47,995 nucleotides of DNA from Deltaproteobacteria bacterium (GTDB lineage Bacteria > Myxococcota_A > Polyangia > Polyangiales > JADJMO01). Under the pieces are notes generated by a model that saw nothing but the letters and a program-made list of their open reading frames with translations, made no database searches and had not been told where the DNA came from. This document shows positions 1-5,039 of the stretch, piece after piece (position 1 is the stretch's first letter; the number at the start of each line of letters is the position of its first letter). Location: contig JALHOE010000043.1 of NCBI GenBank assembly GCA_022843175.1, positions 1 to 47,995 on the forward strand. The letters run 5' to 3'. A program made the position numbers and the translations under genes.

Positions 1-318
1 ATTCGTCAGGTCCGCGCCGCCGCGGGGCTATGTCCTTTTGGCTATCACGCGCTCGCGTTGGGGGCGCCCTCGCCCGCCGCGGGGGGCGCGCGACTCGGGT
101 TCGCAGCGCGCATGGCGTTCGGGGCCGCGGTCGCGACCGCGGGGCTCGCGGCCGCGTGTGGCGGCGGCAACAAGCCGGCCGAGACCAGCGGCACCAACAC
201 CGAGGCCGAGGCCGGCGTCGCCCAAGAGGACGCGGCCGCGCCCGCGACGAGCGGCTCGTTCGATCCCAACATGGCCAAGCCGTACGGCGCGCCCCCCGCG
301 GACGGGCTCCTCGTCTGA
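1..318 (+). CDS. 5'-truncated small lipoprotein-like protein with KPYGAPPADGLLV tail (paralog of next gene)
   Basis: The frame is open from base 1, so the gene starts before the window. The visible part aligns without gaps to the next protein (R-x-V-R-x5-CPF-x3-AL), then has a hydrophobic segment ending in a lipobox-like LAAAC, a Thr/Ala/Glu-rich linker and the C-terminal tail KPYGAPPADGLLV. That tail is identical to the end of the next protein. A TTG at 58 could be taken as a start, but it would cut off the part homologous to the paralog, so I reject it. The stop overlaps the next start (TGATG, 316-320), indicating translational coupling. Function is unknown. The identical tail beside a radical SAM/SPASM gene makes it a candidate substrate of that enzyme; this is inference. 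Confidence 0.75.
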   Translation: MRQVRAAAGLCPFGYHALALGAPSPAAGGARLGFAARMAFGAAVATAGLAAACGGGNKPAETSGTNTEAEAGVAQEDAAAPATSGSFDPNMAKPYGAPPADGLLV

Positions 319-686
319 TGCTGCGCGAGTGCGACGCGTGCCTGCGTCACGTCCGCGTCTCCGAGACGCGCTGTCCGTTCTGCGACGCAGCGCTCGCCGC
401 GGCGCCGCGCCTCCCGTCGGTGCCGAGCGGCGTGCGTTCGCGCGCCGCGCAGATCGCGATCGCGGCCACCCTGATCGGCTGCGAGGAGCCGAAGCCCCCG
501 GTCGCGCCGCACGAGTCGACCGAGGTCGCCGACGCGTCCCCGCCGCCGCCCGCCATGACCACGACGACGCCTCCCGCAGAGACCGCGACGGCACCCGCGA
601 CGACCGCGCCCCCGCCCCCGCCTCCTCCTCCGCCGAACCTCAAGAAGCCCTACGGCGCGCCTCCGGCCGACGGCCTACTCGTCTGA
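318..686 (+). CDS. Small protein: CxxC/CPFC zinc ribbon, lipobox-like segment, Pro-rich linker, KPYGAPPADGLLV tail
   Basis: 122 residues, starting at the ATG that overlaps the upstream stop. Residues 5-22 hold two Cys pairs (CDAC and CPFC) spaced like a zinc ribbon. Residues 43-55 form a hydrophobic stretch ending in LIGC, a lipobox-like site. A Pro/Thr-rich linker with nine consecutive prolines leads to the tail KPYGAPPADGLLV. The upstream paralog keeps CPF but has lost the last Cys of the second pair. The 3' end overlaps the convergent radical SAM gene by 12 bases. The arrangement of short protein, invariant C-terminus and adjacent SPASM enzyme resembles peptide-maturase pairs, but no family name is recognised. 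A membrane lipoprotein of unknown role is the alternative. Confidence 0.72.
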   Translation: MLRECDACLRHVRVSETRCPFCDAALAAAPRLPSVPSGVRSRAAQIAIAATLIGCEEPKPPVAPHESTEVADASPPPPAMTTTTPPAETATAPATTAPPPPPPPPPNLKKPYGAPPADGLLV

Positions 687-1937
687 CTCCACCACCACGT
701 CGAAGCGTGCGTGATCGAACGGCACGCCGGGCGCGGCCTCGCGCGGCACGATCCGTTCGCGCTTGCCGATGCGCTGGTGCTCGAGCGCGCGGTGGTGACA
801 GAGCGGATTGTTGCCGGGCCGACCGAGCACCGACTCCGACGTCCAGGTGCAGCCGGCGAGGCAGTTCTCCGCGTAGTAGCAGGTGCGGCAGTAGCCCCAC
901 AGATCGTCGACGGTGCGATCGCGCGTGTACCGCAGCGGCGCCGCGCGCTCCCATAGATCGCGTAGCTTGTGCTCGCGGACGTTGCCCCCCGCCCACTTGT
1001 CCGTCGCGAGCGACGGACACCCCTTGATCGTCCCGTCGGCCTCGATGCCGAGCCCGGAGCGACCGAGCCCGCACGTGCCGCGGTGACCGGTGGCCATCGT
1101 GCCGTGCAGCTTGGACTCGAACGGCCCGAAGTAGCCGATGTTGTTGCCCGGCCAGAGGAGCACGCGCGCCTCGCGACAACGGTCGGCCAGCTGACCGAGC
1201 ATCGGGAACAGCGTCAGCATGTCGTAGGGCTGGAGCAGCACGTCGGGCTCGTCGGCGGCGCGGCCCATCGCGACCGTGAGCTGAATCTGCCAGCTGTGGA
1301 TCCCCGCGGCGATGATCGTCTCGAGCACGTCGGGGAGCTCGCTCATGCTCAGGCGGTTGATCTGGGTGTTGGCCGAGATGCGGATGCCGGCGGCGACGAG
1401 GTGGTCCATCGCCGCGAGCGCCGCGCGATACGAGCCGGGCACGCCGCGCAGGCGATCGTGGGTGGCCTCGTTGCCGTCGAGCGAGACGCTCGCGCTGATC
1501 AGGCCCGCGCTCTTCGCCGCTCGGGCGCGCTCGGGCGTGAGGCCGCGGCCGCCGGTCGTCATCAGCGCCTGCATCCCACGCGCGGTGATCCGCTCGATGA
1601 TCGCGAGCCAGTCGTCGCGCAGGTACGCCTCGCCGCCGATCAGGATCACCTCGAGGCACCCGAGCTCGGCGAGCTGGTCGACGAGGTCGAGGCACTCCTC
1701 GGTGCTGAGCTCGTCGGGCCGCGCGTGGCCGGCGCGCGATCCGCAGTGCCGACACGCGAGATCGCACGCCAGCGTCACCTCCCACACGGCGTACACCGGG
1801 CGGTACTCGCGATCGATCGCGCGCACGTCCGGCGCGAGCGGGAGCCTCTTCGGTCCGGCCGGCGCGCGCGGCGCGATGGGGAGATCGCGACGCGGGCGGG
1901 GCGCACGCATCAGGGCCTCGCGCTCGTCCTCTCGCAT
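675..1937 (-). CDS. Radical SAM/SPASM domain protein
   Basis: 420 residues. The 4Fe-4S-binding CX3CX2C motif is C58-C62-C65 (CDLACRHC). A TIM-barrel core with the GGEAYLR motif follows. The C-terminal third (about 285-375) carries a textbook seven-Cys SPASM domain: C-X12-G-X4-C, then CRTCYYAENCLAGC (CX2CX5CX3C) and a final NPLC. SPASM proteins with this spacing commonly mature ribosomal peptides or proteins (family knowledge). The gene converges with two small proteins that share an identical C-terminal tail, and diverges 56 bp from an aldo/keto-reductase-like gene. The substrate is inferred, not shown. A haem-pathway-like or sulfatase-maturase-like role is an alternative, but no haem or sulfatase gene is nearby. 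Confidence 0.9.
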   Translation of the reverse strand: MREDEREALMRAPRPRRDLPIAPRAPAGPKRLPLAPDVRAIDREYRPVYAVWEVTLACDLACRHCGSRAGHARPDELSTEECLDLVDQLAELGCLEVILIGGEAYLRDDWLAIIERITARGMQALMTTGGRGLTPERARAAKSAGLISASVSLDGNEATHDRLRGVPGSYRAALAAMDHLVAAGIRISANTQINRLSMSELPDVLETIIAAGIHSWQIQLTVAMGRAADEPDVLLQPYDMLTLFPMLGQLADRCREARVLLWPGNNIGYFGPFESKLHGTMATGHRGTCGLGRSGLGIEADGTIKGCPSLATDKWAGGNVREHKLRDLWERAAPLRYTRDRTVDDLWGYCRTCYYAENCLAGCTWTSESVLGRPGNNPLCHHRALEHQRIGKRERIVPREAAPGVPFDHARFDVVVESDE

Positions 1938-2811: not shown

Positions 2812-3231
2812 ATGCGCTACCTGCACACCATGCTGCGCGTCCGCGATCTCGACGCGGCGCTCGACTTCTTCGTCCACAAGCTCGGGCTTCGCGAGCTGCG
2901 CCGCCGCGACAGCGAGCAGGGCCGCTTCACGCTGGTGTTCCTCGCCGCCGAGAACGAGGACGCGCAGGTCGAGCTCACCCACAACTGGGACCAACAGGAC
3001 GCCTACCCCACTGGCCGCTTCTTCGGACACCTGGCCTACGAGGTCGACGACATCTACGCCATGTGCGAGCGGCTGCGCGCCGGCGGCGTCGTCATTCACC
3101 GTCCGCCTCGCGACGGGCGGATGGCGTTCGTGAAATCGCCCGACGGCCACTCCATCGAGCTGATCCAGAGCGGCGACGCGCTGCCGCCGCGCGAGCCGTG
3201 GGCGTCGATGCCCAACACGGGCGAGTGGTGA
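2812..3231 (+). CDS. gloA: Glyoxalase I-like VOC protein (lactoylglutathione lyase)
   Basis: 139 residues, close to bacterial GloA length, starting at ATG 2812. The N-terminus MRYLHTMLRVRDL strongly resembles GloA. All four expected metal ligands are present: His5, Glu in VELTHNW, His in FGHLAYEV and Glu in HSIELIQ near the end. The known reaction converts the hemithioacetal of methylglyoxal and glutathione to S-lactoylglutathione in the cytoplasm. The C-terminal extension (PPREPWASMPNTGEW) is longer than usual. The gene lies 11 bp after the AKR-like gene and 23 bp before a TerB-like gene, all rightward. Another vicinal-oxygen-chelate activity linked to the radical SAM locus cannot be excluded. 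Confidence 0.82.
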   Translation: MRYLHTMLRVRDLDAALDFFVHKLGLRELRRRDSEQGRFTLVFLAAENEDAQVELTHNWDQQDAYPTGRFFGHLAYEVDDIYAMCERLRAGGVVIHRPPRDGRMAFVKSPDGHSIELIQSGDALPPREPWASMPNTGEW

Positions 3232-3254
3232 GGGCGCGATGCTAGCCTTGCTCC

Positions 3255-3662
3255 ATGGTGCTCGGTCGAGACGTCTTCCTCGCGCTCGCGTCGATCGTGT
3301 GGGCGGACGGGCGCGTCGTGCCGGCCGAGGCCAAGGCGCTGGCCGACGCAGCGCGCGCGTGCGGCATCAAGGGTGACGATCTGGTCGCGATCGTCGGCGC
3401 CACGCTCGAGCGCCAGGCCGTGCCGCAGCGCCTCACGCTCACCCACGACGAGAAGCTGTTCGTCTACGGCGTCGCCGTGTGGCTCGCGGAGGTCGACGGC
3501 GTGGTCAGCCACGAGGAGACCGAAGCGATCCGCGAGCTCGGCGATCGGATGGGGCTGACCGTCGACGAGCGCGCCATGGTGTGGGCGGCCGCGCGCGCGC
3601 CGGGGCACCGTCCGGCGGCCTCGGAGCTCGAAGAGGCGATCTCCCGCGCGTCCCGTCCGTGA
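3255..3662 (+). CDS. TerB-like (tellurite resistance TerB fold) protein
   Basis: 135 residues, all-helical. Two metal-binding-type TerB motifs are visible: WADGRVVPAEA (about 16-26) and AEVDGVVSHEE (about 76-86), acidic loops that recur in the TerB and DUF533 families. There is no signal peptide or membrane segment, so it is probably cytoplasmic. It lies 23 bp after the glyoxalase gene in the same direction. No ter operon partner is present, so a tellurite role is not supported. In this family single-domain members are widespread and mostly uncharacterised. The start at ATG 3255 fits the spacing; no strong ribosome binding site is seen. Confidence 0.78.
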   Translation: MVLGRDVFLALASIVWADGRVVPAEAKALADAARACGIKGDDLVAIVGATLERQAVPQRLTLTHDEKLFVYGVAVWLAEVDGVVSHEETEAIRELGDRMGLTVDERAMVWAAARAPGHRPAASELEEAISRASRP

Positions 3663-3824
3663 TCGGTCGCTGCGCGACGGCTTGCGCAATTCGTCCCGTG
3701 CGCCGCGCGCCACCTCGCCGTGTCGGTCGCGAGCGCGGCGTCTCCGCGCCGTGACAGCGCCTGTTTTTGCGGCGATCGCGGCTCGGTCACGGACGGAACG
3801 GCGGTTGCTCTGACCCCGGTCGCC
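3663..3824. other. Intergenic stretch before the papain-like lipoprotein gene
   Basis: 162 bp with no convincing gene. The frame of the following peptidase stays open up to about 3720, but starting there would put 35 residues with no secretion features before the lipoprotein signal. I see no clear -35/-10 or -24/-12 promoter and no strong hairpin. Confidence 0.5.
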
Positions 3825-5039
3825 ATGATCAACGCCCGCACCCTCGCCGTCCTCGCTCCGATCGCCTTCGCCGCGTGCTCGATGCCGAACAACTACGAGG
3901 AGTCGTCGGCGAGCTCCACGAACGGGGTGCCGCCGCCGTGGATGGAGATCCGCGACTACGAACCGGAGAAGCCGGTGGTGGTCGAGAACGCGAAGGATCT
4001 CTTCGGCGATCTCCCGCGCGCGGACTTCAGCCAGGAGATCCTCACCAAGGACGCGACCTCGGGCACCTACTCGCTGCTCGAGTGGGACACCCCGCCGAAG
4101 AACCAGGGCAGCCGACCGTGGTGCACGGCGTTCGCGCAGATCACGGTGATGGAGAACATGATCCGCCACGGCTTCGGCGAGATCGTCGACCTCTCGGAGA
4201 TTCACCACTTCCGCAACTACAACCAATACGACTGCTACGCGTCGACCAAGGCGTCGCAGAGCTACAAGATCATCCCCGAGGCGTCGTGGCCGTACGCGGG
4301 CTCGCCGGTCTCCGGCTACAAGGAGCACGGCCTCGCCAAAATCACCGGCTATCGCAGCCTCACCAAGATGAGCCAGGTGAAGGACGCGCTCCGCGCCAAC
4401 CACCCGGTGCACATCGGCCTCGACATCAACGGCTCGTGGAACGCGCCGGGCAAGAACGGGCGCCTGCGGTCGGGCGGCGGCGGCGGCGGCGGCCACGCCA
4501 TCACCATCGTCGGCTTCTACGAGGACACGACCTACAGCGGCGGCGGCTACTTCCTCATCAAGAACTCGTGGGGCACCAAGTGGGGCGACCTCGGCTACGG
4601 CCGGTTGCCGTACGACTACTGCAACTACGGCTGGTGCGTGCTGCTCGAGACGCTCGGGGTCGAGTACAAGGGCAAGGTGTGGGACGGCACGACGGTGCCG
4701 CCGCCCCCGCCGCCCGCGGGCGACGATCCGACGGTCAACGATCTCACCGTCGGAACCCACAAGAACGCCGCGCAGGCGAACAAGTTCACGCTGTCGCTGG
4801 TGGAGAAGAAGGCGGGCGCGCTCGGGCAGGTGACCAAGGTCGTCTACAACGTGCACGAGACCTTCGGCACCTACGCCACCTGGACGGTGGAGGATCCGAA
4901 GGACGGCTTCAAGATCCCCTTCGAGTACACGACCTACTTCAAGGGTCGCTGGACGACGAACGGCGCCGCGGTCTACCTGAAGAGCGGCAAGATCCTCAAC
5001 CTGCCCGGCGCCATCGTGCAGTGGTACTACGTCGACTGA
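3825..5039 (+). CDS. Papain-like (C1 family) cysteine peptidase lipoprotein
   Basis: 404 residues from ATG 3825, chosen because it begins directly with a lipoprotein signal (lipobox FAAC, Cys about residue 17). The catalytic domain shows Cys in NQGSRPWCTAF (about 100), His in GGHAITIVGF (about 224) and Asn in IKNSWGTKWGD (about 247), in the papain order Cys-His-Asn. There is no obvious inhibitory propeptide beyond about 75 residues. A run of seven glycines sits directly before the catalytic His. A poly-Pro linker (about 290) leads to a C-terminal domain of about 105 residues of unknown fold. It is likely anchored to a periplasmic or outer membrane face. The gene converges with and overlaps the GMC oxidoreductase gene by 13 bp. 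Confidence 0.88.
   Translation: MINARTLAVLAPIAFAACSMPNNYEESSASSTNGVPPPWMEIRDYEPEKPVVVENAKDLFGDLPRADFSQEILTKDATSGTYSLLEWDTPPKNQGSRPWCTAFAQITVMENMIRHGFGEIVDLSEIHHFRNYNQYDCYASTKASQSYKIIPEASWPYAGSPVSGYKEHGLAKITGYRSLTKMSQVKDALRANHPVHIGLDINGSWNAPGKNGRLRSGGGGGGGHAITIVGFYEDTTYSGGGYFLIKNSWGTKWGDLGYGRLPYDYCNYGWCVLLETLGVEYKGKVWDGTTVPPPPPPAGDDPTVNDLTVGTHKNAAQANKFTLSLVEKKAGALGQVTKVVYNVHETFGTYATWTVEDPKDGFKIPFEYTTYFKGRWTTNGAAVYLKSGKILNLPGAIVQWYYVD

Follow-up and report, generated by a model that had tools for sequence, protein, structure and literature searches.

The founding splicease, PlpX, belongs to the SPASM subclass IPR026482 and comes from a gene cluster of the nif11/nitrile-hydratase type (PMC11002830). 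Together with PlpY, it removes the tyramine part of the tyrosine in an XYG motif (-C8H9NO, -135.0757 Da) and joins the carbonyls; MYG and LYG motifs are processed, as are tags of the type GPIRPLYGLPI, and a ten-residue tag is enough without a leader, whether C-terminal or internal (PMC10533398). Furthermore, splicing of one precursor can take place at several sites (PMC10373908), and spliceotide products have been reported as protease inhibitors (PMC10373908; PMC11117315).

The described systems closest to the locus presented here are: (i) the PlpX/PlpY splicease of Pleurocapsa sp. PCC 7319 (TIGR04103), which acts on precursors of the Nif11/NHLP type; (ii) the GDL-type maturases (TIGR03913), which are adjoined by tandem small substrates, DUF1843 peptides with YG-type motifs such as MLYGGA and KPYGVA; and (iii) the DAG-RiPPs, or RiPP-lipoprotein hybrids (DybA, NedA), which combine a lipoprotein signal and a lipobox with a C-terminal motif that is modified before export (PMC12636315). 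The resemblance to the last group lies on the substrate side and is, in our case, predicted; DAG-RiPPs use MNIO (DUF692) enzymes, whereas the partner found here is a radical SAM/SPASM enzyme, a class unmentioned in PMC12636315. The authors of that work expect leader-independent chemistries to be the ones compatible with the modification of lipoproteins prior to export (PMC12636315).

The locus and its radical SAM/SPASM enzyme

The window, i.e., the whole stretch of DNA that was analysed, is the 47,995-nucleotide contig C43 of a 9.75-Mb genome in 470 contigs, whose nearest named relatives are the Polyangiaceae and the Sandaracinaceae. Its relevant features are the following:

1-318, forward strand: small protein 1, putative lipoprotein with a C-terminal PYG tag; truncated at its 5' end by the contig edge
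148-159, forward strand: lipobox-like AAAC of small protein 1, read from the sequence
277-315, forward strand: C-terminal KPYGAPPADGLLV of small protein 1; splicing is predicted at Tyr codon 283-285, followed by Gly codon 286-288
318-686, forward strand: small protein 2 (122 aa), with zinc ribbon, signal peptide, lipobox, Pro/Thr linker and PYG tag
330-383, forward strand: zinc-ribbon-like N-terminus CDACLRHVRVSETRCPFC of small protein 2, the proposed recognition or leader domain, with the family-invariant C, C, H, C, C
471-482, forward strand: lipobox LIGC (Cys 55) of small protein 2; Cys invariant in 43 family members
645-683, forward strand: C-terminal KPYGAPPADGLLV of small protein 2; splicing is predicted at Tyr codon 651-653, followed by Gly codon 654-656
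675-1937, reverse strand: radical SAM/SPASM enzyme, 420 aa, splicease-like (NCBIfam, Pfam, alignment, model)
798-1073, reverse strand: SPASM seven-Cys region (Cys 289-380; Pfam PF13186)
1743-1766, reverse strand: radical SAM cluster motif CDLACRHC (Cys 58, 62, 65; Pfam PF04055)

The first reading frame is open from base 1 of the contig, its start codon lying beyond the edge, and its stop shares one base with the start of the second frame (TGATG, 316-320). An earlier note on this DNA had called the two genes adjacent and translationally coupled; the adjacency stands, and the shared base is compatible with coupling. On the opposite strand, the enzyme gene converges on the second small gene with the 12-bp overlap that had been described (675-686). 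The first 89 bases of the window are matched at 83% by the final 89 of contig C252 (control placements, at most 58%), and the end of C252 encodes a plausible beginning of small protein 1, MPQLRPCDACLRHVRADAGRCPFCDHALA. The N-terminus of this protein is probably located there, and the 'CPFG' read in the window may be a CPFC altered by an error at the contig end. Two kb past the enzyme, the window contains a predicted papain-family cysteine peptidase (3720-5036; PF00112) with a lipoprotein-like start; papain-family cysteine peptidases are inhibited by ketoamides.

The SPASM motif of the enzyme is complete, as the earlier note had read it, with its seven Cys at positions 289, 307, 350, 353, 359, 363 and 380. 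The radical SAM and SPASM Cys are invariant in 18 and in 40 homologues, in an alignment that leaves out one row with a stop codon. The enzyme scores 475 bits (E 1e-142) against TIGR04103 (nif11-class maturase 3), which we take to be the same family as IPR026482, and 460 bits against TIGR03913 (GDL maturase), in both cases below the cut-off (725 and 591.75 bits, respectively), and the match to the latter stops at profile position 389 of 477; other SPASM families of NCBIfam reach about 160 bits or less. By computation, the enzyme belongs to the superfamily that comprises the PlpX-type nif11-class maturase 3 and the GDL maturase. The earlier note had recognised no described system in this locus, a view that has to be given up for the enzyme, whose family is already known.

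Among its relatives, the window enzyme shares 52% identity with an enzyme from a Nostoc plasmid, which clears the TIGR04103 cut-off at 853 bits; the Nif11 precursor beside the Nostoc enzyme ends GSIALYGLPPELF (...ALYGLPPELF). PlpX itself was compared by description. The 71-aa protein that follows the Nostoc enzyme, whose homology to PlpY is assumed from its position, gave no sequence match in 18 genomes when used as a (short) query. The GDL-type enzymes of Azospirillum and Aureibacter, the latter just under the cut-off, show 50 and 48% identity, respectively, and the DUF1843 proteins beside them start MLYGGAM, KPYGVAI, PMYMATM and QPYGAGI. When a tree is drawn with distant SPASM outgroups, the enzymes of Nostoc, of Tropicibacter and of the GDL type nest in the Myxococcota diversity, on long branches that leave the exact placement unsure. 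A close enzyme (63%) is encoded, together with a substrate, in a Verrucomicrobia-labelled MAG (JAFEGM010000034.1), a case of transfer or mis-binning. The model of the window enzyme (pLDDT 87.6) finds SkfB, SuiB and PqqE as nearest folds, as any SPASM maturase would, and this search is uninformative on chemistry. No zinc ribbon was found at either end of the window enzyme.

The putative lipoprotein family and its YG tag

The N-terminal similarity of the small proteins that the earlier note had pointed out (RQVRAAAGLCPFG vs RHVRVSETRCPFC) is the mark of a large family. A profile of the N-terminal 60 or so residues, with the tag left out, finds 17 copies in the genome of the window and up to 27 in its relatives. 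Their architecture is constant: CxxCxRHVRxxExxCPFC, a basic segment, a hydrophobic segment, a Cys, and a divergent, disordered linker. The C, C, H, C, C of the N-terminal ribbon are invariant across the family, and in the model of small protein 2 residues 1-30 reach a pLDDT of 90-96. The residue preceding the invariant lipobox Cys is G, A or S in 92 of 93 family proteins. From this placement of the Cys after a hydrophobic segment, the small proteins are putative lipoproteins, with predicted lipidation; a signal peptide preceded by some 40 residues is unusual. The linkers past the lipobox are highly divergent and, the YG tag aside, no residue is conserved in them; they are free to diverge, in keeping with the earlier note, which had explained the otherwise low similarity by the divergent linkers.

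Regarding known families, the small proteins match neither a Nif11 nor a nitrile-hydratase-like leader among the Pfam and NCBIfam models, and their assignment to DUF1843, Nif11 or any other named family of these collections was rejected, there being no acceptable match (none in Pfam for DUF1843). The ribbon gives weak zinc-ribbon matches that extend to unrelated families (Lar, GntX). When the small protein was used for a fold search, the best hits were RanBP-type zinc fingers covering 25 residues, which are not significant (E 0.2).

Both small proteins of the window end in the same 13 residues, KPYGAPPADGLLV, as had been noted. The 42-nt ends of their genes show six differences, all of them at third codon positions and synonymous. 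Since all six are silent, it is the peptide that has been kept rather than the DNA recently copied, and a recent duplication was rejected as the origin of the identical tails. Two further copies of the tail are present in the same genome (contigs C104 and C278), both apart from the enzyme, and the exact tail is absent from all other genomes among 284 Myxococcota. Because it is confined to one genome, a search with the exact tail would fail where a YG search succeeds. The 13 residues as a conserved unit were therefore discarded: what the family keeps is the Tyr and, nearly always, the Gly. Nor is the pair, as it had been presented, the unit of the system, given that at least 15 tagged family members occur in this genome, mostly unlinked to the enzyme.

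Thus reduced, the tag is a general property of the family. YG is found in 92 of 93 family proteins, with one to five sites each, and 209 of the 226 Tyr located after the lipobox Cys are followed by Gly (Gly background, 18%); by comparison, Tyr precedes Gly in only 39 of 1562 cases in the enzymes and in 1 of 25 in the N-terminal part of the family itself. The consensus is [PA][LAPM]YG[AGL]PP. Both window proteins contain KPYGAPP and thus have the XYG motif of a TIGR04103-type precursor. The tag is situated within 20 residues of the C-terminus in 79 of 92 proteins, and internal and multiple tags also occur. In the genome of the window, 15 of the 16 members whose C-terminus is present have YG. 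The sole complete member without it (contig C89; L082, 1345-1689) ends GGAMPVYK, as if the Gly had been lost. Another member (contig C408; L087, 1501-1899) shows VYGAPPEP just after the lipobox, followed by some 80 seemingly domain-like residues and no disordered tail.

The differences from the known systems can now be specified. With PlpX/PlpY, the myxobacterial system shares the superfamily of the enzyme, the XYG motif, several sites per precursor and the ALYGLPP of the Nostoc precursor, and for PlpX/PlpY a short tag suffices without the leader (PMC10533398). Unlike PlpX/PlpY, the window enzyme reaches 475 of the 725 bits, has no recognised PlpY-like protein next to it and is accompanied by zinc-ribbon lipoproteins devoid of a Nif11 or nitrile-hydratase leader, many of them encoded away from the enzyme. 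With the GDL-type maturases, the myxobacterial system shares the superfamily, small substrates encoded in tandem beside the enzyme, YG-type motifs and a similar zinc ribbon within the system; but the window enzyme attains 460 of 591.75 bits, and while in GDL-type systems the ribbon is on the C-terminus of the enzyme and the substrates are DUF1843 peptides, in myxobacteria the ribbon is on the substrate, together with a signal peptide and a lipobox.

Co-occurrence, tag variation and ribbons on enzymes

Enzyme and lipoproteins co-occur strictly, in one direction. Within the order, 57 genomes were compared: 34 carry the enzyme and 31 the lipoproteins, all 31 among the enzyme carriers and none among the 23 enzyme-free genomes (Fisher p 5e-13); by genus, 24 have both, 14 neither, and one the enzyme only. 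In 284 genomes spread over the Myxococcota, the lipoproteins are present in 61, all of which have the enzyme, and in none of 177 enzyme-free genomes (p 5e-33). Both p-values are optimistic given the kinship among genomes; the one-sidedness is, in any case, complete. The earlier note had named a tail in enzyme-free genomes as the finding that would speak against it, and none was found in these 284 Myxococcota. Conversely, 46 of the 107 enzyme-bearing genomes of the phylum set have no detectable lipoprotein, and the enzymes of these relatives may have other substrates.

At the level of loci, nearly all of 29 enzyme loci of the order have a neighbouring small protein with the ribbon, usually with YG tags. 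About a dozen of 78 genome-contig loci have no recognisable substrate nearby, several of them being cut by contig ends. No such tagged protein lies alongside the other SPASM paralogues of the window genome. Loci with enzyme and lipoproteins are also present in the cultured Plesiocystis pacifica, Enhygromyxa salina and Polyangium fumosum. That the lipoproteins are substrates of the enzyme is well supported. As to the tail being the modification site, the earlier proposal is likely correct by virtue of the co-occurrence, the YG in 92 of 93 proteins and the Nostoc motif, yet it holds for the Y(G) and not for the 13 residues.

The tag also varies with the enzyme. In a group of related enzymes (L129, L132, L142 and L162, with L161 near), the substrates end IYSAA, IYAAA or VYRAT, with the Tyr kept and the Gly replaced; these Tyr-Ser, Tyr-Ala and Tyr-Arg tags possibly reflect a changed splice-site specificity. 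Other clusters have tag styles of their own, such as IYGGVFPDP (L036, L038) and KKYGAP (L095, L172). In one genome (G027), the C-terminus of the enzyme, SPRLGDADGARLAPAEKYGAPPMRK, is the C-terminal substrate tail of its sister genome (G054; SPRLGDAGGERFAPADLYGAPPMRRP), and this enzyme reads as a natural enzyme-tag fusion.

At locus L034, EKYGAPPMRK is fused to the C-terminus of the enzyme (1489-2811), and an unrelated downstream reading frame (3032-3316), whose product has no Pfam match, bears the same tail; a truncated enzyme copy on another contig (L195) carries it as well. These occurrences suggest recombination in a genome that has no zinc-ribbon lipoprotein. The L034 genome holds the tag pattern only three times, which gives no support to the idea of a modular tag spread over unrelated proteins throughout the genome.

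Ribbons resembling that of the lipoproteins are found on enzymes too. A Tropicibacter relative has a lipoprotein-like zinc ribbon on its N-terminus, CPDCGRHVLLRDQVEDTRCPFCG (match E 1.6e-7, obtained in a small set with shuffled decoys), and the GDL-type enzymes have a less similar one on their C-terminus. Since similar ribbons are fused to related enzymes, the lipoprotein ribbon probably serves recognition, in place of the RRE partner of PlpX. This point is suggestive, because zinc ribbons are common and weak matches reach unrelated families; the likeness to the GDL-type ribbon is no more than suggestive, while the Tropicibacter ribbon matches well. The Tropicibacter enzyme is encoded on a Tropicibacter oceani plasmid (L191, 3725-5347), where its operon also holds genes for another radical SAM protein, two peptidases and a phosphotransferase; no YG precursor was identified at this locus.

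Proposed maturation, alternatives and meaning

Taken together, the reading that we consider probable is that the window enzyme is a splicease-like maturase that excises tyramine at the XYG motif of many lipoproteins, including both small proteins of the window, which are then exported. According to this mechanism, the cytosolic enzyme would bind the precursor lipoprotein, perhaps via the N-terminal zinc ribbon, and act at the XYG in the disordered tail. The tyramine part of the Tyr (C8H9NO, -135.08 Da per site) would be excised and the two carbonyls joined, as with PlpXY, and the X residue would become an alpha-keto-beta-amino residue; X is Pro in the window, and the literature consulted describes PlpXY on Met, Leu and Gly. 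The protein would then be exported via its signal peptide, signal peptidase II would cut before the lipobox Cys, and this Cys would be lipidated, the zinc ribbon and the signal being lost together as a leader. Each mature lipoprotein would display between one and five ketoamides; being electrophilic, these may act as protease inhibitors or react with partners. Judging from homology, tyramine excision at the XYG tags is likely, and tags with multiple sites fit a splicease, because a splicease can act repeatedly on one precursor. We infer in which order the steps occur, what the zinc ribbon does and which function the modified lipoproteins have.

The main competitor, which we regard as unlikely, is that the enzyme modifies the YG tags by some other radical chemistry, namely a Tyr crosslink, an epimerisation, or backbone cleavage without rejoining. 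SPASM enzymes are chemically diverse, the clade lies under both family cut-offs, Ser, Ala or Arg follows the Tyr in one enzyme cluster, and precursors of the GDL type, for whose enzymes no activity was found in the literature consulted, have YG, YM and YA. Against this stand the surroundings of the Tyr (ALYGLPP), which are shared with the Nostoc TIGR04103 precursor and resemble the splice tag of PlpX, the 52% identity to the Nostoc enzyme, and the conservation of the Tyr itself, as tyramine excision demands.

It is far less probable that the YG tag is a docking or recognition element only, with the enzyme acting on some other residue of the lipoprotein or on a different molecule: it is generally known that other RiPPs have recognition motifs that are not modified, but here the linkers diverge and conserve no other residue past the lipobox, and up to five tags per protein are expected of modification sites. 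Equally hard to credit is a sorting or surface-attachment signal for a different, unlinked machinery, with an incidental enzyme neighbourhood, a notion that accounts for the many tags near the C-terminus (79 of 92 proteins) and for the copies of the window genome unlinked to the enzyme, but not for the enzyme in 61 of 61 lipoprotein genomes, the lipoproteins in 0 of 177 enzyme-free ones, the internal and multiple tags, or the lack of such a protein beside the other SPASM paralogues.

Splicease-like maturation being the preferred reading, a wider proposal can be put forward more tentatively, with a confidence somewhat short of even: the Myxococcota would use splicease chemistry not to make a small natural product but to equip exported lipoproteins as an entire class, with up to 27 members in one genome, with ketoamide beta-residues. 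Ribbon and signal would form a removable leader, scattered substrates would be served in trans, and the envelope would carry a gene-encoded, electrophilic and protease-reactive coat. As a conjecture, the mature lipoproteins on the cell surface would trap proteases in a covalent but reversible manner.

Scott et al., in 2022 (Chem 8:2659), reportedly surveyed ribosomal beta-residues in bacterial peptides and proteins, and some myxobacterial loci may already be included in that survey. If the proposed maturation is true, backbone splicing to beta-amino acids would be a routine modification of envelope proteins across a phylum, beyond cyanobacterial peptides. Furthermore, cultured hosts would offer a natural, probably leader-removable class of substrates, and many new enzyme/tag pairs, including the Tyr-Ser and Tyr-Ala variants, would become available for protein labelling. 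Finally, the role of ribosomal beta-residues would be directly testable by deletion of a single enzyme.
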